Assembly: GCA_023205875.1 (NCBI GenBank) | Contig: CP060765.1 | Span: 1 to 64,000, forward strand | Source: Chloropicon primus | Lineage: Eukaryota; Chlorophyta; Chloropicophyceae; Chloropicales; Chloropicaceae | Direction of reading: 5' to 3' | DNA length: 64,000 nt | Part shown: piece by piece, positions 44,256 to 62,258 of the stretch | Layout: each line of letters begins with the position of its first letter | How positions within the stretch are numbered: the stretch's first letter is position 1 | Notes under the pieces: model-generated | What the model saw: the letters and a program-made list of their open reading frames with translations, nothing else | Told to the model about the DNA's origin: nothing | Database searches by the model: none | Made by a program: the position numbers and the translations under genes

Positions 44256-47200
44256 ATGAGGCGCGGGACGAGCGACAGGGGAAGGTCCCTCTTCCTCTTC
44301 CTCTTCCTCTTTCTCTTTCTCTTGCTTTTCTTTTTTTGCGTCGCCGTCGTCGAAACGGCTGGAGTGGTGGAGGTTGAGGTCTACACCAACGCGGAACAAG
44401 GAGGAGTGGATGGGATCGGTGGAGAGGATGGAGGACATCCTCCTCCTCCGCCGTACTTTGGTTCGGTCGATCTGCTGATACGTAACGGGGGTTCTTCCTC
44501 CGTGGACCTCGGTGATCTCACCGCGCACTTCTTCCTCGGTGAGGACCCCTCGAACGCGCACAAGTACGACGGTTTGGTTTGGAGTGCCCTGAGGGAGACT
44601 CGCGAAGGGAGCTTCGACTTTGTGGAGGACGTGGAGGTAACGTTCACGGAGTGCCATGGGAACGCGACGTCCTGGTCCGCGGAAGCGGGGGCGAGGGTGC
44701 GCATGGACATCGCCTTTGGGAAAAGCCAACACCTTCCTCCCGCGTCTAGGGCCCTCGTGAGGACGAGGGTGACCAAGAGGGTGTGGCCGCGCGAGCCGCT
44801 GGACGATGTGTCTCCATGGTCGCATCTCCGTGAGCTGGCGAGTCCTGTCGTCTTCTCGGCCTTGGACTCCAACCAAGAAAGCATGGTGCACTTTGCCGAG
44901 AACAGGAGGGTCGTGCTGAGCGACGGCAGCGGGAAAATCCTGTGGGGGCACTACCCGTCGGGGTATGATGCCGCCAGGAGCTCCGGCGAGGAGCTGTGCG
45001 GGATGAAGAGGGGGGGCGGCACCTCCAGGAAGACCGTCGCGAATTATGCGAGGAGGAGTCTGCTGCAGAACTTCGCGCAGGAGGTGTACCTGCAGGAGTT
45101 TTCCCTGCCTTGCGAGGACATCGGGAGCGTGATCCGGATGGATTCGAGGTTTGACGAGTCGTTGCCTCAGCTTCAGTACGTGAAGCTGCTCATTTCGAAC
45201 GAAGGGGAAGCGCCAGCGAGTCTTGACGGCCTGAGGATCCCCTTCCCCTACAGGGAGCTTGGCGAGGAGCACAAGCTTGTCGCGGCATGCACCAACCCGG
45301 TGTTGCTCGGCTCGAGCATGACGAACGCTTGGAGCGACGACATCTGTGACCACATCGACATCACTGTCTCTGAGGACGAGTTCGTCGTCGAGTTCAAGAA
45401 CTTCACGCTCTGTCCGTACTGCAGAATCGACGCGTTTTCCGACGCCTTGTCCCTGTTTGCTGTGTACGATGAGCATTGGCAGCGGGTGCAGATTGAAGTT
45501 ACCCTGGGAGCCTCCAGCTGCGCGTCGTCTGGCAGCGTGGTCTCTGACCCTTCCGCGCACATGTCGACGCTTTCGGTCAATCGCGTGAAGATGGACCCCG
45601 GCAACTGCCACACCATGCTCAATGTGCATTACGGCGGAACCATCCTGAGCAAGCCAGAACTCAAAGCAAGTTCTGCGACCGAGTGCTGCGATCTTTGCCA
45701 CAAGGAGCCCACTTGTAACGTTTGGACCTGGTGTGACAGTTTGATCGGATGCTCGAATGGAGAGGAGGACAAGTGTGTGCTCAAGTATGAGGTGGAGCTC
45801 GAGCCAACAATTTTGAGCAAGGGCAAATACACGCCCTGGGCATCGGGCTACTTGGGGTTGACCCAAGAGCCTATGCGCGCACCGCCAACAACAGTTTCAC
45901 CAACGTACACCTCGATCACGTCGTCATGCACGTCTGAGATCTCGGGCTTGGCAGCGGCTTGTACGAACGGCAACATGGCGTCCTCGATGAGTGTATCCCA
46001 GTGCTGCCAGAGGATTGCCGAGACAGACAGCATGTGCTTGTGCAACAAAGATTTTGGGTTTGAGATGGCTGCGATGCAGGAATCTCTCGAGACTTTTTCT
46101 GAGAGTCAGTGTAGCCACATTCCCTGCGCCAGCAGTGCAATCGCTGCACCAATACAGCAGAAGTCTTTGGCAGGGTCTCCATTGTCCAGAAAGAGCGGTA
46201 CCGCCGCACAAGGACAGCAGGGGCAGCCTGCCAAATCCCAAGCCCAGGGCCGCGCGCCCTTGCTCCCCCCAAACTGCGGTTTGGAAAACATCAAGACCGA
46301 TCTCGTCATGGAAAGCAACAGCAATTACAACAAGATCTTCTTGGTGGGATCTCTGACCAACACCGCAAGGAGGAGCGTGACGCTCGGCGACTTCACGGTC
46401 CCTATATTCTTCAGCAGGGGCGCCAAGGGCTACGACAACAAGTGGTACAGGGCAAATCCAGATGAATTTGTGGTGGAATGCAAAGATCCTGTGATCACTA
46501 CGACCCAGTTTGGCACCGTCGAACGAAGGCGCATGAGTTGCGACAACATGAAGGTCACAGTTGACGAAGAAGGAATCCTTTTCATGCTCCGCGGCGTGGA
46601 GCTGTGCCCTGGATGCTCCATCGGAGGTTCACAAGAGATGCCTATGTGGGAGATCAGGCACGCTGCCAACTTTCCTTTGGACTTCATCCATATCAACCCA
46701 GCCTTGGCATCCAACGGCCCAATCATTGGGAAACCTTTCTGCGACACTTTTGAAGACAGTTTGGAGATTCAGGAGGCCCTTGAGATGAATCCCATGGATA
46801 TGAACGTCCAGCCCCAGGAAATTTCGGACCAGGTGTGGAGGGAGCCCTCCGACACCAATACTGCCCAAGATCTTCTGCTCGGTACTCCCACAAGCGCAGG
46901 AGGTTTGGCTGGCTCAGAACCGGGCATCGGCAATGCCGCTGCGCTCAATGTTGGGCAAAAACCGTATCAGACTGTGACCCCGGATCAGCTGCGGCTGCTT
47001 GCTCCCGGGCAAGCTGCCATGCTGCTTAAGGACATGCACCCAGCTGCGGCAGCTCAAGCTCTGGCTGGACTGCAGCCACAAGAGGCCATTCCCATTTTGC
47101 AAGCGATGTCTCCCGCTGACGCTGGGAAAATCGCAGATGCAATGCCAGGCCCAGATGTCGCTGACTTGCTGAGGTACATGCAGCCAAATGCTGCATCTCA

Positions 47201-50200
47201 GCTTGTGGCAGCAATGTCTCCCGTGGTGGCAGCGAGTGCCTTGCAGCAGCTTCAGCCTCAGCAAGCTCAGGCCATCCTTTCATTGGTGGATAACCAGCAT
47301 GCCACTAGGTTACAGAACGCGATGCCTCCAGCTTCCGCGAGTCCAGGCAGATTGTCAAGACTGCCACCTGCTCAGGCGGCAGCCTTGCTCCAGCAATTGT
47401 ACCCAGCTCAGGCCGCCGCGGCACTGAGGGGACTGACGCCTGCCCAGGCAGCTGCGATACTCGAGGTCATGCCCCCGGAGGATGCTGCCCAGATCATGGA
47501 TGTGATGCCCGGCGGGGCTGCTGCTGACTTGCTTGGGGCGATGGATCCGTACGCCGCCCAGCAGCTGTTTAGCAATATGTCTCCCGTTGTGAGTGCCGAT
47601 GCTTTGAGGCAGATGCCTCCGGAGAAAGCCAGTGCTTTGATGACTTCGACGTCTACTCCAAGTTCAAGACAACCCATAGGAGCAGGAACGCCCATAGTCA
47701 CATCGCAACAGCTTGCTGCGATGAGTCCGGCACAAGCGGCCATGGCGCTGAGGGGAATGAGTCCCATGCAAGCTGCTGAGGCCCTTGCCGGTCTCGAGCC
47801 ATGGCGGGCTGCCCCCATTTTGCAAGCACTATCTCCAACGGACGCTGGTCCAATCATGGATTCCATGCCCGGAACAGAAATTGCTGGCATACTGAGGTAC
47901 ATGGATCCTGCGGAAGCAGCAGCGCTTTTGGAGCAGATGTCTCCCGTGGTGGCAGCGAGTGCCTTGCAGCAGCTTCAGCCTCAGCAAGCTCAGACCATAT
48001 TGGGCCTCATGGACAACAGGGACGCTACGAGGTTGCAGAATGCGATGCCTCCAGCTTCCGCGAGTCCTTTGAGACTTTCGCGGATGAGCCCAGCACAAGC
48101 CGCTACCTTGCTCCAGCAATTGTACCCAACTCAGGCCGCCGCGGCACTGAGGGGACTGACGCCTGCCCAGGCAGCTGCGATACTCGAGGTCATGCCCCCG
48201 GAGGATGCTGCCCAGATCATGGATGTGATGCCCGGCGGGGCTGCTGCTGACTTGCTTGGGGCGATGGATCCGTACGCCGCCCAGCAGCTGTTTAGCAATA
48301 TGTCTCCCGTTGTGAGTGCCGATGCTTTGAGGCAGATGCCTCCGGAGAAAGCCAGTGCTTTGATGACTTCGACGTCTACTCCAAGTTCAAGACAACCCAT
48401 AGGAGCAGGAACGCCCATAGTCACATCGCAACAGCTTGCTGCGATGAGTCCGGCACAAGCGGCCATGGCGCTGAGGGGAATGAGTCCCATGCAAGCTGCT
48501 GAGGCCCTTGCCGGTCTCGAGCCATGGCGGGCTGCCCCCATTTTGCAAGCACTATCTCCAACGGACGCTGGTCCAATCATGGATTCCATGCCCGGAACAG
48601 AAATTGCTGGCATACTGAGGTACATGGATCCTGCGGAAGCAGCAGCGCTTTTGGAGCAGATGTCTCCCGTGGTGGCAGCGAGTGCCTTGCAGCAGCTTCA
48701 GCCTCAGCAAGCTCAGACCATATTGGGCCTCATGGACAACAGGGACGCTACGAGGTTGCAGAATGCGATGCCTCCAGCTTCCGCGAGTCCTTTGAGACTT
48801 TCGCGGATGAGCCCAGCACAAGCCGCTACCTTGCTCCAGCAATTGTACCCAACTCAGGCCGCCGCGGCACTGAGGGGACTGACGCCTGCCCAGGCAGCTG
48901 CGATACTCGAGGTCATGCCCCCGGAGGATGCTGCCCAGATCATGGATGTGATGCCCGGCGGGGCTGCTGCTGACTTGCTTGGGGCGATGGATCCGTACGC
49001 CGCCCAGCAGCTGCTGAACAACATGTCTCCTCTCGTGCGCGCCAATGCACTGAGGCATTTAGGCAATCCAAGCGCGGCTGGGGATCTTGCAGGGCAGGAT
49101 GGTCGATTTGGGCAAATACAGAATGACGGTGAGGTACCTATAGTGGATGCGTCTGCGATACACCTTTTTGATATCGAGAAAGCACAGCAGATAGGCACGC
49201 CGATGGACCTGAATGGCCTGACACAGCAAGAGAAGGACGCTTTGCTAGCCGAGCTCTTAGCAAGGGCTGGAAGGCCTGTTGGTTCCGTTGCCGAACAAAT
49301 AGATGTGGCAGTGGCCAACTCCGATCCCGTGACTCTTCCTCCTGGGGCGTTGGACGAACAAGCAAACGCAGAGGAAGAGGGCATCCTCATTGAGTTCTCA
49401 AGATGGGCCAAAAAGAGTGATTTGTGGGAAAAGGCTGACGCGTCAGAGTTTGAACTTTCGTCGCCAGACTACGTGCAGGGGGAAGCTGTGCTGGTTGATA
49501 GAGAAGATAGCATCGAGGCAAGACTCCCCACGAAAGTGAAATCGGTTACGCTGAAGCACAAATTGGATGCAGAGCTTGACCCTCGTACTCCCACTATTTC
49601 TACGGCGAGCGGCGAGGACTACGAGGCAGTGCTTATGGAGGATGCCACCCTGTGGCTCATTAAGGACGCCAGTTTCGACGACGTCGGGGATGCCATTGAT
49701 GGAGCCGAAGCTACTGGAATCGGTGGTGGTAAAGATGACACGGTGAGGCTTGTGAGCGACGTTTCACCCTTGCAGGCTGCGAGAGTTCTCGATTCGGTGG
49801 ATGATGCTCTCGCGGCCGACATCCTGGCGGAGATGCCCCTTGAAGATATTGCGAGGGTCATCGCATTGCTGCCTGCGGACAGAGCAAAAAGGCTGATCGA
49901 GCTGTTGCCTAAGGACAGGCAAGAGGAGCTGATCCCGTTGCTGGATGGGGTGGACGCCATCGCGTTTGAAGCCATAGCCGATTTCATGCCTTGCGAGTCT
50001 GAAAAATTCCAAGTGAGTTTGAGAAGCAAAGTGCTGAACGGGGGCACGCGGTATGGGATCACGGGGACCATCGAGAACCCCACCAATCAAACGCTTTCTC
50101 TCAAGGGCCTGGAGATCAGAGTTGGGCTCAGTCCCTGGGTGAAGGATGCCACTGGAGTGTGGGAGCGAGCCGATAACGCGGATTACACCGTGCGCTGTGC

Positions 50201-50783
50201 GTGGCTTGGGATCGGATCGGTGAACTTTTGTGACACGGCCAGCGTTGTGATGGAAAACCACACGGCTGTAATCACGCTTCAAGGCCAGCTCAGGGCCGGG
50301 GAGAAAGTCAGCGGGCCTCCTGACGGAATTCTCATGGAGGTTGGAAGGAGGGGAAGAGCCCTGGACTTGAAGAATTTGCCCCTGATCGGCGTCGCTTGCC
50401 CCGGCCAGGAGGTAGGCCAGAGCATGTCGAGGTTTGAAGCTGATCAGGTAGGCGCTGGAGACTTGGTGACAATCGATTTCTCGCCCTGGATGAGGGCCGC
50501 GGGATCAAGCACCTGGCAGCGAGGCAGTGAGGACGAGTTTTCGTTGTCCTGCAAAAGCGGCGCGGATGCCTGCCCTGGTGTAGGCCAAGCAACTCTATCC
50601 ACGTCTTCCTCGGGCCAAGCACTGGAGGCTTCCTTTGTCGCGAGTGAGCCTGTGGACATCCTCCTTACCGCGAAAGACGGCTCGGAGCTCGACTTCAGAG
50701 AGCCCATTGTCACGAGCGGGTTCGACGCTTCGGCAAAACTGGTGAACAACGGGACAGCGTGGGATATTCAGCTGTCCAAGTAA
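44256..50783 (+). CDS. giant secreted modular protein: CBM3-like modules, PAN-like domain, eight-cysteine motif, MgtE-N-like repeat array
   Basis: 2175 residues, ATG 44256, single exon. A signal peptide (Leu/Phe repeat encoded by a CTCTTC microsatellite, about 10-32) targets secretion. Residues ~36-210 resemble a cellulose-binding CBM3-like beta sandwich (VEVYTNAEQ, LLIRNGGSSSVDLGDLTAHF). A second such module is at ~290-440. PAN/Apple-like Cys-rich segment ~445-515 (TECCDLCHKEPTCNVWTWC). Residues ~557-625 have the lipid-transfer-type order C, C, CC, CxC, C, C. A third sandwich is at ~674-830. From ~905 to 1600 runs an array of short helices of the form MSPxxAAxxLxxM, resembling the MgtE N-domain/FliG superhelix; a further set is at ~1834-1910. 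Another sandwich module ends the protein. Probably an extracellular matrix or wall scaffold. No homologue with this order is known to me. Confidence 0.85.
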   Translation: MRRGTSDRGRSLFLFLFLFLFLLLFFFCVAVVETAGVVEVEVYTNAEQGGVDGIGGEDGGHPPPPPYFGSVDLLIRNGGSSSVDLGDLTAHFFLGEDPSNAHKYDGLVWSALRETREGSFDFVEDVEVTFTECHGNATSWSAEAGARVRMDIAFGKSQHLPPASRALVRTRVTKRVWPREPLDDVSPWSHLRELASPVVFSALDSNQESMVHFAENRRVVLSDGSGKILWGHYPSGYDAARSSGEELCGMKRGGGTSRKTVANYARRSLLQNFAQEVYLQEFSLPCEDIGSVIRMDSRFDESLPQLQYVKLLISNEGEAPASLDGLRIPFPYRELGEEHKLVAACTNPVLLGSSMTNAWSDDICDHIDITVSEDEFVVEFKNFTLCPYCRIDAFSDALSLFAVYDEHWQRVQIEVTLGASSCASSGSVVSDPSAHMSTLSVNRVKMDPGNCHTMLNVHYGGTILSKPELKASSATECCDLCHKEPTCNVWTWCDSLIGCSNGEEDKCVLKYEVELEPTILSKGKYTPWASGYLGLTQEPMRAPPTTVSPTYTSITSSCTSEISGLAAACTNGNMASSMSVSQCCQRIAETDSMCLCNKDFGFEMAAMQESLETFSESQCSHIPCASSAIAAPIQQKSLAGSPLSRKSGTAAQGQQGQPAKSQAQGRAPLLPPNCGLENIKTDLVMESNSNYNKIFLVGSLTNTARRSVTLGDFTVPIFFSRGAKGYDNKWYRANPDEFVVECKDPVITTTQFGTVERRRMSCDNMKVTVDEEGILFMLRGVELCPGCSIGGSQEMPMWEIRHAANFPLDFIHINPALASNGPIIGKPFCDTFEDSLEIQEALEMNPMDMNVQPQEISDQVWREPSDTNTAQDLLLGTPTSAGGLAGSEPGIGNAAALNVGQKPYQTVTPDQLRLLAPGQAAMLLKDMHPAAAAQALAGLQPQEAIPILQAMSPADAGKIADAMPGPDVADLLRYMQPNAASQLVAAMSPVVAASALQQLQPQQAQAILSLVDNQHATRLQNAMPPASASPGRLSRLPPAQAAALLQQLYPAQAAAALRGLTPAQAAAILEVMPPEDAAQIMDVMPGGAAADLLGAMDPYAAQQLFSNMSPVVSADALRQMPPEKASALMTSTSTPSSRQPIGAGTPIVTSQQLAAMSPAQAAMALRGMSPMQAAEALAGLEPWRAAPILQALSPTDAGPIMDSMPGTEIAGILRYMDPAEAAALLEQMSPVVAASALQQLQPQQAQTILGLMDNRDATRLQNAMPPASASPLRLSRMSPAQAATLLQQLYPTQAAAALRGLTPAQAAAILEVMPPEDAAQIMDVMPGGAAADLLGAMDPYAAQQLFSNMSPVVSADALRQMPPEKASALMTSTSTPSSRQPIGAGTPIVTSQQLAAMSPAQAAMALRGMSPMQAAEALAGLEPWRAAPILQALSPTDAGPIMDSMPGTEIAGILRYMDPAEAAALLEQMSPVVAASALQQLQPQQAQTILGLMDNRDATRLQNAMPPASASPLRLSRMSPAQAATLLQQLYPTQAAAALRGLTPAQAAAILEVMPPEDAAQIMDVMPGGAAADLLGAMDPYAAQQLLNNMSPLVRANALRHLGNPSAAGDLAGQDGRFGQIQNDGEVPIVDASAIHLFDIEKAQQIGTPMDLNGLTQQEKDALLAELLARAGRPVGSVAEQIDVAVANSDPVTLPPGALDEQANAEEEGILIEFSRWAKKSDLWEKADASEFELSSPDYVQGEAVLVDREDSIEARLPTKVKSVTLKHKLDAELDPRTPTISTASGEDYEAVLMEDATLWLIKDASFDDVGDAIDGAEATGIGGGKDDTVRLVSDVSPLQAARVLDSVDDALAADILAEMPLEDIARVIALLPADRAKRLIELLPKDRQEELIPLLDGVDAIAFEAIADFMPCESEKFQVSLRSKVLNGGTRYGITGTIENPTNQTLSLKGLEIRVGLSPWVKDATGVWERADNADYTVRCAWLGIGSVNFCDTASVVMENHTAVITLQGQLRAGEKVSGPPDGILMEVGRRGRALDLKNLPLIGVACPGQEVGQSMSRFEADQVGAGDLVTIDFSPWMRAAGSSTWQRGSEDEFSLSCKSGADACPGVGQATLSTSSSGQALEASFVASEPVDILLTAKDGSELDFREPIVTSGFDASAKLVNNGTAWDIQLSK
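47400..49010 (+). repeat. 723-bp in-frame tandem repeat, about 2.2 copies
   Basis: Within the giant secreted-protein gene. The unit starting near 47400 (QLYPAQAAAALRGLTPAQ) recurs at about 48123 and partially at 48846 to 49010; the offset is 723 bp (241 residues). Copies look almost identical at the nucleotide level, including third positions, so duplication or gene conversion was recent. Each unit holds roughly twenty of the short MgtE-N-like helices and a Ser/Thr-rich spacer (TSTSTPSSRQPIGAG). Confidence 0.93.
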
Positions 50784-51108
50784 CGCCCCCCCCTCGGACC
50801 TTTGTGTACAACAACAAGATTTTTTTCCTTCTCTTATTGATATGAACTTTGCTTGTAGTCTATTAGAGATTCTTCTTCCTTGTTACTTGATGGTGATGGT
50901 GTATCAGCCGGGGAAGGGTGAAAGAAAGAGAGATGGGTTGGACAAGAAAACGTTAAATTCATATACGTTTCAATGAGCTTTGTTTTTTTTTTACACTAGG
51001 GCCTTAGGCGGCGGCCTCCTCCTCTTCTCCTTCAGGCTTTGGTTCTCCATCCTCTGCATCCTCCTTGGCATCCGCAGCAGTCTTTGCCTTTGCTTCCGCT
51101 TCCTCCGA
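50673..51108. repeat. direct repeat copy A flanking the nitrile hydratase segment
   Basis: Starts in the last 111 bp of the giant secreted-protein gene (AAAGACGGCTCGG), runs through the intergenic spacer and into sequence matching the 3' end of RSP3. Matches copy B (53309 to about 53786, offset 2636) with a few small differences: a 4-bp (TTCC) and a 6-bp deletion in the spacer, and a missing segment plus substitutions in the RSP3-like part. Similarity fades at about 51108. Confidence 0.93.
51004..51108 (-). pseudogene. orphan 3' fragment of RSP3
   Basis: Encodes on the minus strand the RSP3 C-terminal end DAKEDAEDGEPKPEGEEEEA with its stop codon, in the duplicated segment. Nothing upstream resembles the rest of RSP3. 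It differs from the intact gene by small changes and a missing stretch. A leftover of the duplication, with no sign of being a gene by itself. Confidence 0.85.
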
Positions 51109-51261: not shown

Positions 51262-52839
51262 ATGAACGCTACTGCCGGCTCGCTCGGCGTCCACGACGCG
51301 GGCGGTGCGACGGATTTTGGCGCAGGTTTGAGCCTCGAAGGTGCGCGTGACAAAGCAAAGGAGGCGCTGCTCCAGTGGGAGATCGAAGTCTGCGCCGTCG
51401 CGGTGCTCATGTCAAAAAAGGGCCTGCGGGTTGTCGACGAGAGCCGCCGCCACCTAGAACTCCTCCCCCCAGATCGCTATGGGACGATCTCGTACTGGGC
51501 CAAGTGGGCGTGTGGCACGGCGCAGTTGTCGATGGCCGCTAAGATCTTCACACAAGCCGAGCTCGACGTGGAGCTCGGTGGCAGCGAGGGTGCGATGAAT
51601 GAGACCTCGCTCGGTCTGGTCCAGCCGGAATCACGGCGCTTCTCCGTCGGCGCCCACGTCCGCGTGCGCTCCGAGGCCGACTCTGTGCGTTGGCGCCGGC
51701 CGCATCTACGGACGCCTGGCTACGTCCACGGCGCGTGTGGTGTCATTGTGCGCGCCCAGGGCCCCTTCGCCAACCCGGAGGAGGTCTCCTTCTACAGTCA
51801 AGGGCCACGGAGGACCGATGCCCTCCTCTACACGGTGCGCTTCCTCCAAGCGGAGTTGTGGCCGCACTACACCGGTGGAGAGGCGGACACCGTCGATGTG
51901 GACATCTTCGAAGGCTGGCTTGCCGACGCCGAGGCCGATGACGATGCCAATGCCGGCAGCTACGACGGTGCGCCGTCTCTGTGGCGCGGCCGCGGCTCGA
52001 GCCTCGTGCGCATTCGCACAGCGGATAGTCGGAAGGCGCGGCGTGTTGGCAATGCCCAAGGCCACGTGCATCATCACTCGAGGGAGGCCGTCGAGCGCGC
52101 GGCGGTCGATCGCGAGGCAGCGCACAACAACAGGGTGGACAAGGACGGAGCATTCGCCGCCCTGCACGCTGCGACGGTGCGGCTGCTCGTGGCCAAGGGC
52201 ATCCTCGCACGCGATGAGCTCCGCGCGATGGTCGAGACGTTGGATACCATGGCGTACGGCCAGACGATGGAGGGCGCCAAACTCGTCGCGCGCGCGTGGT
52301 GCGACGAGGCGTTCAAGGCCCTCCTGCTCACGGCTCCCGCCAAGGCCATCGAGGCGGCGGGGCTCACACAGATCGTCGACGCGCGCGGTGGCATCGGCTC
52401 GACGCGTGCAGGCATCGGTCACCTCGAGTACATGGGCACAGCCTCGCGCGGTGCTCCATCGCAGGCGCTTGCGCCGATTGGCGACACGGAGCTCGTGGTG
52501 GTCGAGAACACCGACGAGGTTCATAATCTCGTCGTCTGTACCTTGTGCTCCTGCTACCCGCGCGCGCTCCTCGGGTTGCCGCCACGGTACTTCACCTCGC
52601 GCGCGTACCGTGCGCGTGCCGTCTGCGAGCCGCGCGCCGTGCTGGAGGAATTCGGGTGCGCGTTACGGCCGTCGGTTACGACCGTCCGCGTGCACGACTC
52701 CACCGCAGACGTCCGCTTCCTCGTGCTCCCCCAGCGCCCTGCGGGGACGGAGGGATGGTCGGAGGAGGAGCTGAGGCCGCTCGCGACGCGGGACTGCCTC
52801 GTCGGTGTCGCGCTGCCGGTGGTGGGTGAGCAGCGGTGA
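51262..52839 (+). CDS. fused beta-alpha nitrile hydratase
   Basis: 525 residues, ATG 51262, no intron. Residues 1-~235 match the beta subunit: LGVHDAGGATDFG opening, YGTISYWAKWA, FSVGAHVRVRSE, YVHGACGVIVRAQG, and LLYTVRFLQAELW with VDVDIFEGWL. A short His-containing linker (H268, H270-272) follows. Residues ~285-520 are the alpha subunit: LLVAKGILARDELRAMVE, VVVENTDEVHNLVVCTLCSCYP and LLGLPPRYFTSRAYR. CTLCSC (426-431) is the metal-binding claw, with Thr typical of cobalt-type enzymes. It hydrates nitriles to amides. Beta-alpha fusions with a His linker are known in choanoflagellates and some other protists. Codon use is strongly GC-ending with CGC/CGT/CGG Arg, unlike the AGG-rich neighbours. 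No targeting peptide seen. It lies between two copies of a duplicated junction. Confidence 0.93.
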   Translation: MNATAGSLGVHDAGGATDFGAGLSLEGARDKAKEALLQWEIEVCAVAVLMSKKGLRVVDESRRHLELLPPDRYGTISYWAKWACGTAQLSMAAKIFTQAELDVELGGSEGAMNETSLGLVQPESRRFSVGAHVRVRSEADSVRWRRPHLRTPGYVHGACGVIVRAQGPFANPEEVSFYSQGPRRTDALLYTVRFLQAELWPHYTGGEADTVDVDIFEGWLADAEADDDANAGSYDGAPSLWRGRGSSLVRIRTADSRKARRVGNAQGHVHHHSREAVERAAVDREAAHNNRVDKDGAFAALHAATVRLLVAKGILARDELRAMVETLDTMAYGQTMEGAKLVARAWCDEAFKALLLTAPAKAIEAAGLTQIVDARGGIGSTRAGIGHLEYMGTASRGAPSQALAPIGDTELVVVENTDEVHNLVVCTLCSCYPRALLGLPPRYFTSRAYRARAVCEPRAVLEEFGCALRPSVTTVRVHDSTADVRFLVLPQRPAGTEGWSEEELRPLATRDCLVGVALPVVGEQR

Positions 52840-53308: not shown

Positions 53309-53419
53309 AAAGACGGCTCGGAGCTCGACTTCAGAGAGCCCATTGTCACGAGCGGGTTCGACGCTTCGGCAAAACTGGTGAACAACGGGACAGCGTGGGA
53401 TATTCAGCTGTCCAAGTAA
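53309..53419 (+). pseudogene. orphan 3' fragment of the giant secreted-protein gene
   Basis: Duplicates the final 36 codons and stop of the gene ending at 50783 (ending NNGTAWDIQLSK), with no upstream coding part. Product of the same duplication that created copy A. Confidence 0.85.
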
Positions 53420-53786
53420 CGCCCCCCCCTCGGACCTTTGTGTACAACAACAAGATTTTTTTCCTTCTCTTATTGATATGAACTTTGCTTGTAGTCTATT
53501 AGAGATTCTTCTTCCTTCCTTGTTACTTGATGGTGATGGTGTATCAGCCGGGGAAGGGGAAGGGTGAAAGAAAGAGAGATGGGTTGGACAAGAAAACGTT
53601 AAATTCATATACGTTTCAATGAGCTTTGTTTTTTTTTTACACTAGGGCCTTAGGCGGCGGCCTCCTCCTCGTCTCCCTCAGGCTTTGGTTCTCCATCCTC
53701 TGCATCCTCCTTGGCATCCTTGGCAGCCTCCTCGGTGGCCTTTTCCTCCGCAGCAGCCTTTGCTTCCTCCTCCGCCTTGGCCTTTG
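53309..53786. repeat. direct repeat copy B flanking the nitrile hydratase segment
   Basis: Second copy of the junction between the secreted-protein gene and RSP3. Its left part (53309-53419) is an orphan copy of the last 111 bp of the secreted-protein gene including its TAA. Its right part is the true 3' end of RSP3. Spacer between the two is nearly identical to copy A. Confidence 0.93.
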
Positions 53787-56306: not shown

Positions 56307-59300
56307 TCACGTCGAAGACCGAGTGTACTTTAAGACCTTGCTCTTCTCCAGCCTCTTCCTGACGGCTATGCCTACTAACGCGCTCCTCACGGAGTCGGAG
56401 ACGTCGTGGAGCTGCTTTGTAATATCAATAAGATCTTTCACCTTGGAGGCCTTGCCGAGCGTCTTGATCTCGTTGGAAAGAACTTGCAAGGGGTTCTGCC
56501 CGCTCAGCATCAGCATGGAGTACTCGGCGTTCCTGACCGAGTTGTGGAAGTTCCCGCAAAAGCTTGGGTAGAGCTTGTCCTCCGCTTCGATCTCCTCCTC
56601 GGTCGGGGCGATGACCTTGCCGTACGCCAAGTTGCGGAACTTGTTCAAGTGGATGGTGCTGAGGTCCTGCATGAGCTTGAGGTACATCTTGATCATGCTC
56701 GATCCGTGGGACTCCTCCTGGACCCTGTGGAGCAAACCCCTGAGAATGGGCTCGGAGCTTCCCGCGGTGTTGAGGATGGGGCTGATCTGATCGCTCAGCG
56801 AGGCGGCGTGCCTCTTCGTGATGACGGCCACCGCGGCGTTTCGGCTGTGAACCTGCGGAGACATGTCCTCCATGTTGTCCGAGCTGAAGAACACCTCCAT
56901 GTCCTCCAGGTCCACCTCCTCCTCCCTGGGAGGGGTGAAAAAGATTTGGATGTAGGCCCTGAGGATGTTCGACATCCTTACCGCGGCGCTGAAGCCCGTG
57001 AAACTGATCTCCTCGATGTCGTGGGCCCAGTCCAAGGTAGGGTTCGTGGTCATCGACTTGGCTTCGTTCACCAGCTTCTCAATTACGTGCAGAGAGGAGG
57101 GCGGGGTGGACCCCGAGGACTCGTCCACGAGCACGGCGGTGACCCAGAACTGCTTGAAAATGGTGTTGAAGTTCAGCAGGTTGTACTTGAGCCTCTCGTC
57201 CTTGGAGGTCCTCCTGATGTTGTTGTGCATCTCCAGCATCGCGACGCACTCCTCGAGCATCTCTTCGGCTTCCTTCTGGTCCATGTACCCGTTGTTGTCC
57301 TTGTCACAGAGCCTGAAGATGTCGAGAATCGCGTTGGTGAGGTGAATCTCGCAGTGGCGGGCTTCCAGGCAGAGCTGGTAAAGGAACTCGGCCTTCAGAA
57401 CCTTCCAACAGTACTCGCTGTCTCCGTGCCTCTGGTTGTATTGCTCCAGGGTAACTTCGTCCACGATGCCCCCGATGTCGTTGTCAAGGATGTCCAAGTA
57501 CATGTCCTTCTCGTCCTCCTCCACCGGCACGGAGATGTCCGTGATGCGCTCCTCGAAAATCTCCCTTGCTTCAATCGATCGCACGCCCAGAACCGTATCG
57601 GCAATGATTTCCGCCCTGCGCCTGCACAGCCACTCCGAGCTTCCTTCGTAATTCATGGAAGTGATGTTCAAAGCAGACCTCTTGTGGTGCTCCGCCTGCA
57701 CGAAAGCATCGATGGACGCGAGGGCAGCCACGAAGCGCGCAAGCACGTCTCCGCCCCAGTAGTTTGAGATCATGTTCCAAAGGATTCTGTGCATGAACTT
57801 CCAGTTCTTCATGTACGGCGTCTCCTCGTTGTCAATGATGTTCAAAATCGTGGAGCTCTTCGAGGCGTTGTCCTGCAGCTTGCTCTTCAAGGTGACCATC
57901 ATCGAAGCCATGTACTCCTCGACAATGGAACCGGTGCCGTACTGCTTGTGGAAGTACCCCAGGAACGCCTCGTGCATGTTCCACGCGGCCACTCGGAGTG
58001 CCCCCGCCATGCAGTTCAGTTTAACGTTCGTCGAGTACGACTCCATGTACTCGGAATTGAACGAGCTCAGCGAGTGGTCAAGGAAGACCATCGAGGTCAT
58101 GAATGTGAGTTTTTGGTTGAGAGTCGCGCTATGCTGCTGATGGTGCTCCACCAGGTGCCCGAGAACTGCATCGATCATACGGTTGAGCCATTCTCCACTT
58201 CGTGTCTTACCAAGGGAGAGGAGACCTTTCACTTTGCTCTTGTTTGGGCTCGCGGGTCCCTTCTCTTCCAAGGCCGTGGCCTCTTGCACTTGCGCCAGGG
58301 CAACCTTCAAGCGAGTGTCATGGTTGGCGAACCACTGTCGCCTGTGGTGTCCCAAAAACCTTTCCTGCAAGTCTTTCATCTGGGCAGCGGTCTTGAAAGG
58401 CGTCGAATCCTCAGCCGGCGCGGGTGCTTCTGGCTTTGCCTCCGGTTCCTGCTCGGGCTTCGCCTCTGGCGTGGCAGGAACGGCAGCAGGTTTCGGTGGG
58501 GGAGGCATTTCGTCCGCCATTTTCGCCATTGCAGCGATCTGAGCGTCCAGCGACATGGCAACCGTCTTCTGTGGTGTGGGGTTGGCCTTGACCGATTCCC
58601 TTCTCTTGATAACCTCGTGAGTTATCTGCTGATGGGTTTCCTGCTTCGTCTCAGCAAGCTTTGCAAGCTCTTCTCCAATCTTGCTTCGCCTCCTGAGCAC
58701 CGGTAACGCCCCTGCTATAGCAGTTCTCTTCGTTGGCGATCCCTCGGCCTTCTTTTGGCTGCTTTGCTCCAAGTAGCTCGAGAAGACGGACGTCCTATCA
58801 GGCGAGGTGCCCACCCCCAACATGCTTCTCCTCGTCGGAGAGGTTTTGTCGGCATCTAGCAAACTCCTGCGAGCATGAAGGCTCCTTCTGGCATGTATCG
58901 CAGGTTTCACGTTCTTGCTGAGCTCCTCGATGGACTTCACCCTGGAACTCCGCCTCAAGAGCGCCGACTCTCGATGCAACGGCTGCTTTGGCTTCAACGC
59001 TTTCTCCCTTGCTTCCGCCAAGTAGCGCATAACGAGCTCCCTCAGTGTCGCGTCGAGACCTTTCACGATTTCGTTCAGCTTATCTTCCCCGTTGATGTGC
59101 TTCAGGATGCAAGAGATGTTGTACGCGTCAATTCTCGACTTGGAAAGAAAGTGGACAGCCAGGCTGGCCGGGACCTTCTCCAGAATGTTTTTGGCGAATT
59201 CAACACCAAACTTGTTGTTATCGATCGCCGTGGTTGCCACGGTATGGTTCACTTTCATGTCCTGCGACAGAAGCTGCATCAGTGATATCGTGTCGATGGG

Positions 59301-62258
59301 GATGTTCATCTTTCCAATCACCTGCTCAAGCAAGGCAAGGCCGATTCCATCTTGCCCCTGACCATACATGTTGTCCAGCAGGATACGAAGCAGGGAGGCA
59401 GCAAAACTCCTCTCACGAATTTTCAGAAGAAACTCAGCGGCTCGGTGCATGTTTTTTTGCGCCAAGTTGAGCAATATCTTGGCGCATTGCCCCTCAACAT
59501 TTATGCTGTCATCGATGTCCAAGGTCGTCGAGCAAATGTGCGTCCAGGTGGAAGCTTCTGGCCAGATCTTCTTGGTCAAGGACGCCGTGCAAAGAATCAC
59601 ATTGGCCGCAAATTCGGGCTCGAACTCGAGCAGCAACTGGGACGCGAACAACTTCTGCTTCGCGTCAAAGTTTTTGTTGCTCTCGTTCAGCATCAGCTCA
59701 AGGATTGTTGACACCACCGACTCCTCGCATCGGCTCAAGATACTGGCGAGTTGCTCCGTTCCCTTTCCACTTTGAATCAAAAGCTTGATGGCACTCTCCG
59801 TGTTAATCCTGTTGAAGACCTCGACCCTCGCAACTGGATGAAGTCGCTCCATAGAGAAAACTGCATGCTTGTTGCTGTAACCCTCGAGAAGCTTCACCTT
59901 CTTGTGGTCCTCGACAGAACCCACAAGAGCAGAGGCAAGTTCCAGGGCAAAGTTCTGATCCTCATGAAGGCCTGTGATGTGCGTCAGGATCTTGGACACA
60001 ATTTCGGGCACCACGTTGGCAAAAATCTTCAAGCGCGTTGCGTCCTCCATGTGAAGAGAAGCGTTGGCAACAATGTTTGCATCCATGTGGCCGATCAAGT
60101 CTCCTGCACGAGCGTGGGGAAGGCTTGAGAGTATCTTGGCAATCTGTTCTGCGGTAAGCTTGCTCAGGGCTCCGCCGGCCACGTCAGATGATATCGAGGA
60201 CAGCAGCTTGTCAATCTCAGGAAGTGAGAGCTCAAGAAGCGATTGGCGGACCTGGCCCTCCAGCTCTTCAATGTTCCCTGACGTGAACATGTTGAGCTTG
60301 CGCTCCAAGTCACTTTTGTTCTTCTTCTCGATTGACATCTGGTCCACGGCTTTTTGAAGGTCTTCGGATATGTTCGCCGCAATCTTCAGATGGGCAATGG
60401 CCGTGTTCTTCTTCGCCACCTTCACGGCAAACTCCTCAAACTCCTTTAGTCTCTCCTGGTGGTCCTTGAGCTTCTCTTCCAAAATCTCAAGCTTTTCCTC
60501 CCCGGTGAGGTCAAGATCATCAAAGCTGTCGATGTTGTGGTCCAGGGAGAGCCGCTTCTTCACCTTTGCACTAAACGCAGAGCTCATCTTCGTTGACTTG
60601 AAGGCCGTGTTCACTTTGGTCACCTTCTGCCACCGTATATTCCTCATTCTCGAGTCCAAGTGGCTCTCCACTTGTTTCATCCGGCCGAACACCGTGTTTA
60701 TCCTCGCGTTCATCTTTGCCATGTCTTGGTTGGCCATGTCATACCGCCGTTTCGCATCTTTCGCCATCTCTTCCTCGAGGGAGGCCTTTTTGGACATGGA
60801 GTCGTAGAGGTTCGACTGTTTCCGGAGCCGGGGGGCTTCGGCCAGAAGCACCGAGAGCTTTGCATCGTAGTGGCTGATGACGTCCTCCAAGTGGCTCGTC
60901 CTGTTTTCAAAGAGGTCGATCATCTCGTTCCACAAGAAGCCCAGGACCGCGCACCTCTCTGCGCAGTGGGCACCCACCTGCCTGATCATGTCTGTCATCG
61001 CCAGAGCCAGAACTTGGGCTTGGGGCAGCCCCTCCCACTCCAGTGAGGTTTTGGACGTCAGGCTGTTCAACGACTCGAGCTTGGAAAGCCTGCTGGAACC
61101 CGTGAGGACATCTCCTCCATGCCCTTCCCTCAAAGCATCCAATGATTTTTGCGTCCAACTCGCGAGCTGGATGGTCTCTTTCCTCGACGAGGGCAGAGAC
61201 ATGTAGCTCGTGTTCAAGGAGAACGCCATCGCTGGATGGTCGGCAACAAGCTTTGAGTCGATGTCCCTCACAAAGGTGTAACCAGGCATCACGTTTGCAT
61301 TGATGCAAGGCTGGTGTCCAGGTACCCTTACTTTCATGAACATCTCACTCCCTTTCTTGACTCTCTGCGCGCTCGGGGGTGCGAAGGAGGGCCTCTCCTT
61401 CCTAGTGGAGCTCGAGCCCTCCTCAAAGAGCTCGGAGAAGCTGGAGAGCAATTGCCTTTTATCGACATCGTTTGCCGAGAAGTCCTGCCTGAACGATATG
61501 TCAGCCTGCCCAGTAACTCCGGCGTACATCATGGCGTTGTCGGAGCCCGAGAACTCGGGAAGCAAGATCGCGCGGCTGTCTTCCTTGTGAAAGTCTTGTA
61601 CCGACATGGCCTCCTCTTCACTCTCCACTACGTTCAAGCTGCTTTCATTTTTTGCCACTTGCGCCCTGTTCAAGCCATCCACCATGCTCTCCAACGAGCC
61701 ACCTCTGCTCGCTTCCGACCTCAGCCTCCGGGAGCCGGGGCTCACTTCGTGCCTCAGCAGGCTCTCCGGGAGCTGCCCCTTCCGCCTTGCCAGCGCCGGG
61801 AACCTCCTCGAGGTGTCAGAGACCGTCCACGAGGACGGCGTCGAGGGAGGCATAGCAGGGACAGGGAACAGAAGCTGCCAAAAGAGAGAGAGAGCCAGGG
61901 AAGAAGGTCAGGAAACTTGGTCCGGGTATTGCAACGGGTTCCATCGTCTTACCTCATTCAAATGTTGCTTCCTGTATGCCGAAGTGGCGTCCGTGTCCGT
62001 CCCAGTCAGAAGGTCTCTCCTTGAGCGTCCCGTTGTAGAAGAGTACTGGGACAGTTGGCCTGCAAGGAATGTAGGCAGAGGAAAGAAGCAAAAGCGCGTG
62101 GGAGAAAGGTACAAGTCAGAGACGGATTCAATCCAATTCATGGTAAAAACCAAACTCTGTTGGAATGTCTTTGCACACAACCTTCCCCATGCTCTGCAGG
62201 ACTTACTTGTGGAGGCCTGGCCCAGACTCCTTTGACTGGGATACCTCTGTCCGTCCAT
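56307..62258 (-). CDS. 1908-residue helical-repeat protein with coiled coils and EF-hand, three exons
   Basis: Exons 62207-62258 (ATG 62258), 61953-62059 and 56307-61874; introns 147 bp (GTAAGT...TTGCAG, phase 1) and 78 bp (GTAAGA...GGCAG, phase 0). Without the first two exons an internal ATG at 61853 would be used; the splice sites and kept frame favour the longer form, beginning MDGQRYPSQRSLGQASTS. A Ser-rich N-terminal third is followed by coiled coil (EEKLKDHQERLKEFEEFAVK), then a long stack of helices from about residue 600 (LPEIDKLLSSISSDVAGGAL, LTAEQIAKILSSLPHARAG) reminiscent of MgtE-N/FliG-type repeats. A basic Pro-rich linker lies around 58.4-58.9 kb, and an EF-hand (DKDNNGYMDQKE) sits near 1578. 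No membrane helices. Function unknown; a cytoskeletal or axonemal scaffold is one guess. Confidence 0.82.

Follow-up and report, generated by a model that had tools for sequence, protein, structure and literature searches.

A predicted secreted giant protein of Chloropicon primus places an MgtE_N/FliG-type helical array between CBM3-like modules and is a candidate wall tether

We found that a gene of Chloropicon primus encodes a protein of 2,175 residues in which helical units of the MgtE_N/FliG type are arrayed between modules predicted to resemble the carbohydrate-binding module CBM3 in fold. Our preferred but tentative reading is that this giant protein tethers wall glycans, the helical units between the CBM3-like modules setting the distance. 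The gene lies in the window, a stretch of 64,000 nucleotides that forms the start of contig 12, and its features are as follows.

44256..50783, plus strand: whole gene, a single ATG-to-stop frame of 2,175 codons plus stop, without internal stop
44256..44360, plus strand: predicted signal sequence, residues 1-35 (hydropathy; aligned segments in relatives)
44364..44951, plus strand: beta module 1, residues 37-232 (predicted CBM3-like fold)
45105..45527, plus strand: beta module 2, residues 284-424 (homologous by profile comparison to beta 3, at 90.6%, and to beta 4, at 86.9%)
45588..45860, plus strand: PAN domain, residues 445-535 (Pfam stretch 459-510)
45927..46127, plus strand: eight-cysteine prolamin/LTP-type module, residues 558-624 (cysteine spacing; weak profile matches)
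46257..46751, plus strand: beta module 3, residues 668-832 (homologous by profile comparison to beta 4, at 96.8%)
46971..47630, plus strand: helical array unit 1, residues 906-1125 (MgtE_N/FliG type by sequence profile)
47703..48365, plus strand: helical array unit 2, residues 1150-1370 (modelled as 19 helices)
48426..49091, plus strand: helical array unit 3, residues 1391-1612 (modelled as 19 helices)
49380..49667, plus strand: short beta module w1, residues 1709-1804 (predicted strands; matches w2 at 97.3% by hhalign and beta 4 at only 6.1%)
49734..49979, plus strand: C-terminal MgtE_N cap, residues 1827-1908
49986..50435, plus strand: beta module 4, residues 1911-2060 (predicted CBM3-like fold)
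50460..50780, plus strand: short beta module w2, residues 2069-2175 (hhalign to w1 97.3%, to beta 4 88.2%)

The open frame around the gene extends over 2,190 codons with zero stops. From the N terminus, the domain order is a hydrophobic signal-like segment, beta 1, beta 2, PAN, the eight-cysteine module, beta 3, the three-unit helical array, w1, the MgtE_N cap, beta 4 and w2. Protein searches returned this order only within one family; the preliminary description had likewise pointed out that it was not known from any protein. No catalytic domain of Pfam or NCBIfam scored above its cut-off in the giant protein. The possibility that two genes had been fused by a reading error was rejected, since other lineages of the family likewise show a single open frame and this domain order, with modules 1 and 4 missing in the relative P0040.

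Telomere-type repeats, mainly CCTAAAA with some CCTAAAAA, occupy positions 1-600 of the window. This indicates that the window is a chromosome end, about 44 kb from which the giant gene lies. C. primus is described as having 20 chromosomes, a genome of 17.4 or 17.5 Mb and CCTAAAAA as its canonical telomere unit, and C. roscoffensis as having 19 chromosomes and 16.8 Mb (PMC6731263, PMC12301720). Our genome profile searches covered 17,584,162 bases in 20 contigs. The neighbours of the giant gene are ordinary: an aspartokinase-homoserine dehydrogenase, a Ufd2-type ubiquitin ligase, MYG1, a nitrile hydratase fusion and radial spoke protein 3. We also observed a direct repeat (50673-51083, 411 nt, and 53309-53729, 421 nt; 97-100% in three blocks) flanking the open reading frame of the nitrile hydratase alpha and beta fusion at 51262-52839. 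Because the repeat duplicates the end of the giant gene (its last ~36 codons) and the 3' end of the radial spoke 3 frame (~80 nt), the 2.6 kb between its copies looks like a recent insertion or duplication.

The likeness of the array to MgtE_N and FliG, proposed from inspection in the preliminary description, was confirmed by profile searches. In a Pfam search with the whole protein, MgtE_N (PF03448) matched nine stretches at 6.3e-91 and 300 bits against a cut-off of 25.9, and FliG_M, FliG_C and FliG_N likewise passed their cut-offs. Unit 1 alone scored 98.3 bits for MgtE_N. None of four shuffled copies and one reversed copy gave any MgtE_N match, which rules out chance or composition as the source of the similarity. 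The array has a period of 12 residues (autocorrelation 0.52, 0.44 and 0.43 at lags 12, 24 and 36) that sits within a unit of 241 residues, and an exact run of 884 nt (47407-48290 = 48130-49013) ties unit 3 to the stretch one unit upstream. The predicted structure has the helical superhelix fold of the MgtE_N family (PF03448), again as anticipated. In the model units 2 and 3 are rigid rods of 19 helices with a low-confidence linker between them; as modelled for these two units, the array shows itself as rods joined by a hinge linker rather than as one continuous spring. A Foldseek search with the C-terminal model returned nothing at E <= 0.001, its top rows being other helical repeat proteins, and a PDB sequence search with the whole protein gave a best E of 0.066 among rows of MgtE, FliG and one pilus ATPase.

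The composition of the array differs from that of its flanks. Acidic residues make up 56 of 736 positions (D+E, 7.6%), compared with 111 of 869 in one flank and 90 of 535 in the other, and this scarcity suggests a structural rather than a metal-binding role. Residues 830-1912 contain no cysteine, nor does the matching stretch of the relatives P0002, P0037 and P0040. A cysteine-free array with cysteines confined to the flanks is what one would expect of a secreted protein whose flanking modules are stabilised by disulfides.

Genome-wide, at least 10 MgtE_N matches were found by profile search (counts are lower bounds), nine of them in the giant gene. The other falls in a 1,848-residue open reading frame on the minus strand at window 56307-61853, 5.5 kb from the giant gene, which has one divergent MgtE_N-like stretch and a weak EF-hand. 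With 28.6 bits in the genome search, 25.8 by hmmscan (cut-off 25.9) and a BLASTP E of 0.054 against the giant protein, we rejected paralogy and did not count it as a family member.

The beta modules had been called CBM3-like, and this description holds by predicted fold for the first and fourth modules and fails by Pfam CBM_3 (PF00942) for all beta modules of the giant protein. A fold search with the predicted structures found the CBM3 beta-sandwich in modules 1 and 4, which places it on both sides of the array. Module 1 is 22% identical to the cellulosomal CipA CBM3a over 144 aligned residues. The N-terminal model is of low quality, with a mean pLDDT of 42.1 and values from 23 to 67 when module 1 is averaged in blocks of ten residues. 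Beta 2 and beta 3 had no fold match of their own, and they, PAN and the eight-cysteine module are absent from the fold matches of this model, which barely tests such parts. PDB sequence searches returned nothing for a beta 3/beta 4 profile and only chance-level rows for module 1, including one endoglucanase chain at E 1.2. The tether reading is supported by the predicted CBM3 fold before and after the array, by the homology of beta 2 and beta 3 to beta 4, and by that of w1 to w2.

Two cysteine-rich modules lie among the N-terminal beta modules. PAN_4 scored 35.7 bits against a Pfam cut-off of 27, so that the PAN-like domain of the preliminary description is upheld. The eight-cysteine pattern, C-x10-C-x13/14-CC-x9-CxC-x22-C-x4/5-C, was present in all four lineages (one protein tested in each) and agrees with what we take to be the canonical prolamin/LTP arrangement, C-C-CC-CxC-C-C. 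Family profile matches to the proposed lipid-transfer type are weak: PF00234 matched two of four members (best E 0.0032) and neither the window's own copy nor, in the genome search, the giant gene, and the unrelated INTS5_N scored 0.0027 in one member. The eight-cysteine profile matched four PDB entries, namely the chitin-binding Mo-CBP4, a 2S albumin and an amylase inhibitor (weak, E 0.088, 0.14 and 7.2) and a fourth that is unrelated. We infer that the PAN and eight-cysteine modules would make auxiliary contacts with protein, glycan or lipid. Elsewhere in the genome we noted a second PAN protein of 539 residues (locus L010, 718-2337, plus strand, contig C7) with a signal-like segment and the PAN pattern CC..C, CN.W seen in the giant protein, and a 1,752-residue open reading frame (L013, 399-5657, minus strand, contig C6) that matches PAN weakly and has hydrophobic stretches.

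We then compared the giant protein with its relatives. A search over 5.8 billion proteins required shared 5-residue words and similar length and scored ~8,000 candidates at most, so remoter relatives may be missed. It gave 39 records besides the query: 35 of lineage 2 (P0002-P0036, 51% identity), three of another lineage (36%) and one of another (51% over 48% of the query). Their labels are ena in 38 cases and jgi in one, and we take them to come mostly from marine metagenomes. The core that precedes the array, beta 2-PAN-eight-cysteine-beta 3, is kept in all four lineages. Module 1 was seen in two (it is absent in P0040 and falls outside the P0037 record) and module 4 in three, being absent in P0040, the only protein of lineage 4. 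When proteins of ~478-1522 residues were searched for the beta, PAN and eight-cysteine cassette free of an array, only P0040 was returned, which has one. In viral contigs 25 stretches matched a pattern of the family and none was confirmed by tblastn; with one unit as query, 205 stretches of prokaryote genome contigs matched and none was confirmed; phage records gave no DNA match.

The number of units differs between proteins. The query has three; by length, 34 of 35 lineage-2 records have two and one has three; the motif count is three in P0037 and two in P0040. The third unit of P0002 is an exact copy of 247 residues at offset 250 (residues 909-1405), the other 34 records of lineage 2 being shorter, and as it occurs in one record on one contig it could be a unit-number variant or an assembly artefact. 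Units are 79, 74 and 95% identical within the query, 76, 77 and 73% within P0037, 52% within P0007 and 50% within P0040. Between lineages the better conserved units are 55-71% identical, and the last units of the P0007 and P0040 lineages only 37-56% identical to other units. In two of the four lineages, those of the query and P0037, a unit resembles the others of its own lineage more closely than those of other lineages.

These comparisons bear on the main rival to the tether, a self-assembling coat, in which helical units would stack across molecules into a wall lattice or layer and the beta modules dock on glycan. It is the main rival because the same fold oligomerises in FlgY and FliG: the MgtE_N-type ARM heads of periplasmic FlgY are described as dimerising and forming higher oligomers, and FliG ARM stacking as driving C-ring formation (PMC11870540, PMC13023049). 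A coat would also fit the layered wall of Chloropicon and the alikeness of units within the query and P0037. However, a low-confidence linker separates units 2 and 3, units are unlike within P0007 and P0040, and a lattice might not tolerate a varying number of units. On balance we consider a coat unlikely, although it deserves to be kept in mind.

Adhesin stalks typically vary in unit number, and the variation seen here would suit a further alternative, that of a fibrous surface molecule for adhesion or mating whose array is the stalk and whose beta, PAN and eight-cysteine modules recognise partner cells. The genome is described as having meiosis genes and almost all genes for flagella, even though no flagella are present on vegetative cells (PMC6731263). 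Against such a molecule, hydropathy scanning found no second anchor-like segment, and the core before the array is kept in every lineage. We regard adhesion or mating as rather improbable.

The only CBM_3 match in the genome is on contig C16. It scored 26.1 bits in the genome search, where the cut-off is 22.4, and 22.0, just under that cut-off, in the whole protein. It belongs to an open reading frame of 948 residues (L015, 2894-5740, minus strand; C16 ~274894-277740) with a signal-like N terminus, the CBM_3 stretch, a hydrophobic segment identified by eye and a C-terminal protein kinase (190.8 bits). This stretch is 31% identical over 75 residues to module 1 of lineage 2 (pairwise E 2e-7) and scores 66.7% by hhalign against the module 1 profile; with the window's own module 1 it gave no meaningful BLASTP match (E 2.9). 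Against the PDB it returned five chains, all CBM3-bearing (E 0.0094 to 0.95). The C16 kinase is possibly a CBM3-based wall sensor, and the finding that the sole other CBM_3 of the genome is a receptor-like kinase ectodomain suggests that the CBM3 ligand is at the cell surface.

The genome was also searched for glycan synthases. Cellulose_synt (PF03552) had no match, whereas four of 14 control genomes matched, three over the cut-off; PF03142 likewise had none against four of 14 controls, and glucan synthase PF02364 matched neither this genome nor any control, so that it tells nothing either way. The missing Cellulose_synt match makes self-made cellulose doubtful as the ligand, and the classical ligand of CBM3 may be absent, which counts against a tether, as does P0040, in which the two modules assigned a CBM3 fold, 1 and 4, are missing. 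A cellulose-like product is still possible, since a GT2 open reading frame on contig C6, the only strong match to PF13632 (85.1 bits, beside two weak ones), has bacterial cellulose synthases as its best PDB relatives (6.4e-25). We believe this GT2 to belong to the green algal clade CslK, which is described as an orthologue of CslA and CslC whose function is unknown (PMC3797821). The ligand of the giant protein is probably a beta-glycan of the algal wall, for example the product of the C6 synthase. The missing Cellulose_synt match could instead mean that a cellulose-type ligand is foreign, a polysaccharide of the environment or of associated microbes. We give this little credence, as the giant protein has no catalytic domain over cut-off and the genome holds both a CBM_3 receptor kinase and a GT2 synthase like those of bacterial cellulose synthesis.

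The N-terminal segment has a hydropathy of KD 3.32 over 19 residues, and the next best window of the giant protein reaches 1.36 (1.34 in P0008 and 1.43 in P0040), so that no second strongly hydrophobic segment was found beyond the N terminus. Tandem repeat analysis (TRF) showed that the coding sequence of this hydrophobic core is a hexanucleotide repeat, CCTCTT, at 44288-44335; length shifts of this microsatellite by six bases would alter the core by Leu-Phe pairs. We inspected the starts of eight lineage-2 records, of which six (P0003, P0004, P0005, P0008, P0010 and P0020) extend upstream and have an aligned, more ordinary signal-like segment. P0040 has its own, placed before beta 2 because this protein lacks beta 1, and we take its true start to lie inside the listed protein. 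P0037 as read begins inside beta 2, its signal region falling outside the record. The signal peptide of the preliminary description is thus backed by hydropathy and alignment in three of four lineages, and entry into the secretory pathway is predicted from sequence. So hydrophobic a core could be an uncleaved anchor. That the protein is not secreted, the segment being a membrane anchor or a mis-read start, seems to us very unlikely: the core is unusually strong and microsatellite-encoded, but the segments in lineages 2 and 4 and the cysteine-rich PAN and eight-cysteine modules argue for export.

In MgtE, the MgtE_N domain acts together with a CBS domain. A Mg or Ca sensor or buffer, in which the array would bind divalent cations outside the cell as the MgtE N domain does inside, has the sequence and fold likeness to MgtE_N in its favour and is the least credible of the readings, as the array is poor in acidic residues, the CBS partner has no Pfam match in the giant protein and E-ring proteins are described as using MgtE_N structurally (PMC13023049).

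The tether may then be pictured as follows. The chain is predicted to be exported, its disulfide-rich flanks would bind wall components with the CBM3-type modules taking beta-glycan, and the rods on their hinges would bridge layers or chains of the wall, which in Chloropicon has three layers (PMC6731263, PMC5656628). Glycan binding and a wall location are proposed, and it is the shape of the array only that suggests a spacer. An elastic spacer between wall glycans, the function first proposed for this protein, appears plausible. As a broader idea, which we offer as speculation more likely wrong than right, green picoalgae recruited the MgtE_N/FliG solenoid to serve as a wall spacer that can be lengthened in evolution by duplicating whole units, and paired it with a CBM3 receptor kinase reading the same wall polymer, as tether and sensor, in an alga with no detectable plant-type cellulose synthase.

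Chloropicophyceae are ocean picoalgae of wide distribution (PMC12301720) with a layered wall described by microscopy (PMC5656628). The literature searched, in which few subscription journals were covered, yielded nothing on their wall chemistry; PMC6731263 contains neither the word cellulose nor the word polysaccharide. Nor did searches on MgtE_N, algal CBM3 and the Chloropicophyceae wall yield a paper describing the giant protein, and for CBM3 in green algae the matching passages of one candidate paper concerned CBM32. With the giant gene a specific wall scaffold candidate is in hand, and the C16 receptor kinase is a candidate sensor of the same polymer. A fold of MgtE, FliG and periplasmic E-rings would here serve a eukaryote as a tandem spacer at a predicted extracellular site, and such a protein may find use as a modular glycan cross-linker of tunable length.

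Several known systems share parts of this architecture. A repetitive gene of Plasmodium falciparum is, like ours, eukaryotic and has an MgtE_N Pfam match, of 1e-5 and called weak; it differs in that it is said to have no signal, and the passage on it does not mention CBM3, PAN or eight-cysteine modules (PMC5964635). From the MgtE N domain (PF03448) of bacterial Mg2+ channels the giant protein differs in its tandem units of 19 predicted helices, which stand behind a signal-like segment in a eukaryote. In Pfam it has no CBS pair and no MgtE transmembrane domain, and it scores 58.8 bits against 232.75 for the mgtE equivalog. It shares the ARM-like MgtE_N fold with FliG, whose Pfam models match it, and with the E-ring proteins MotE, FlgY and FlbB, described as using this fold outside the cytosol (PMC13023049). 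These are, in contrast, bacterial motor proteins, the E-ring ones short, and the giant protein misses the NCBIfam equivalog cut-offs of fliG (41.3 against 226.7 bits) and FlbB (21.3 against 110). Modules 1 and 4 resemble in predicted fold the CBM3a of CipA and cellulosomal scaffoldins, but here CBM3-type modules with no Pfam CBM_3 match flank a helical array. The PAN_4 score links the giant protein to PAN domains, and the eight-cysteine spacing, with weak profile matches, to plant prolamin/LTP domains; in the giant protein both are joined with CBM3-type modules in one chain.
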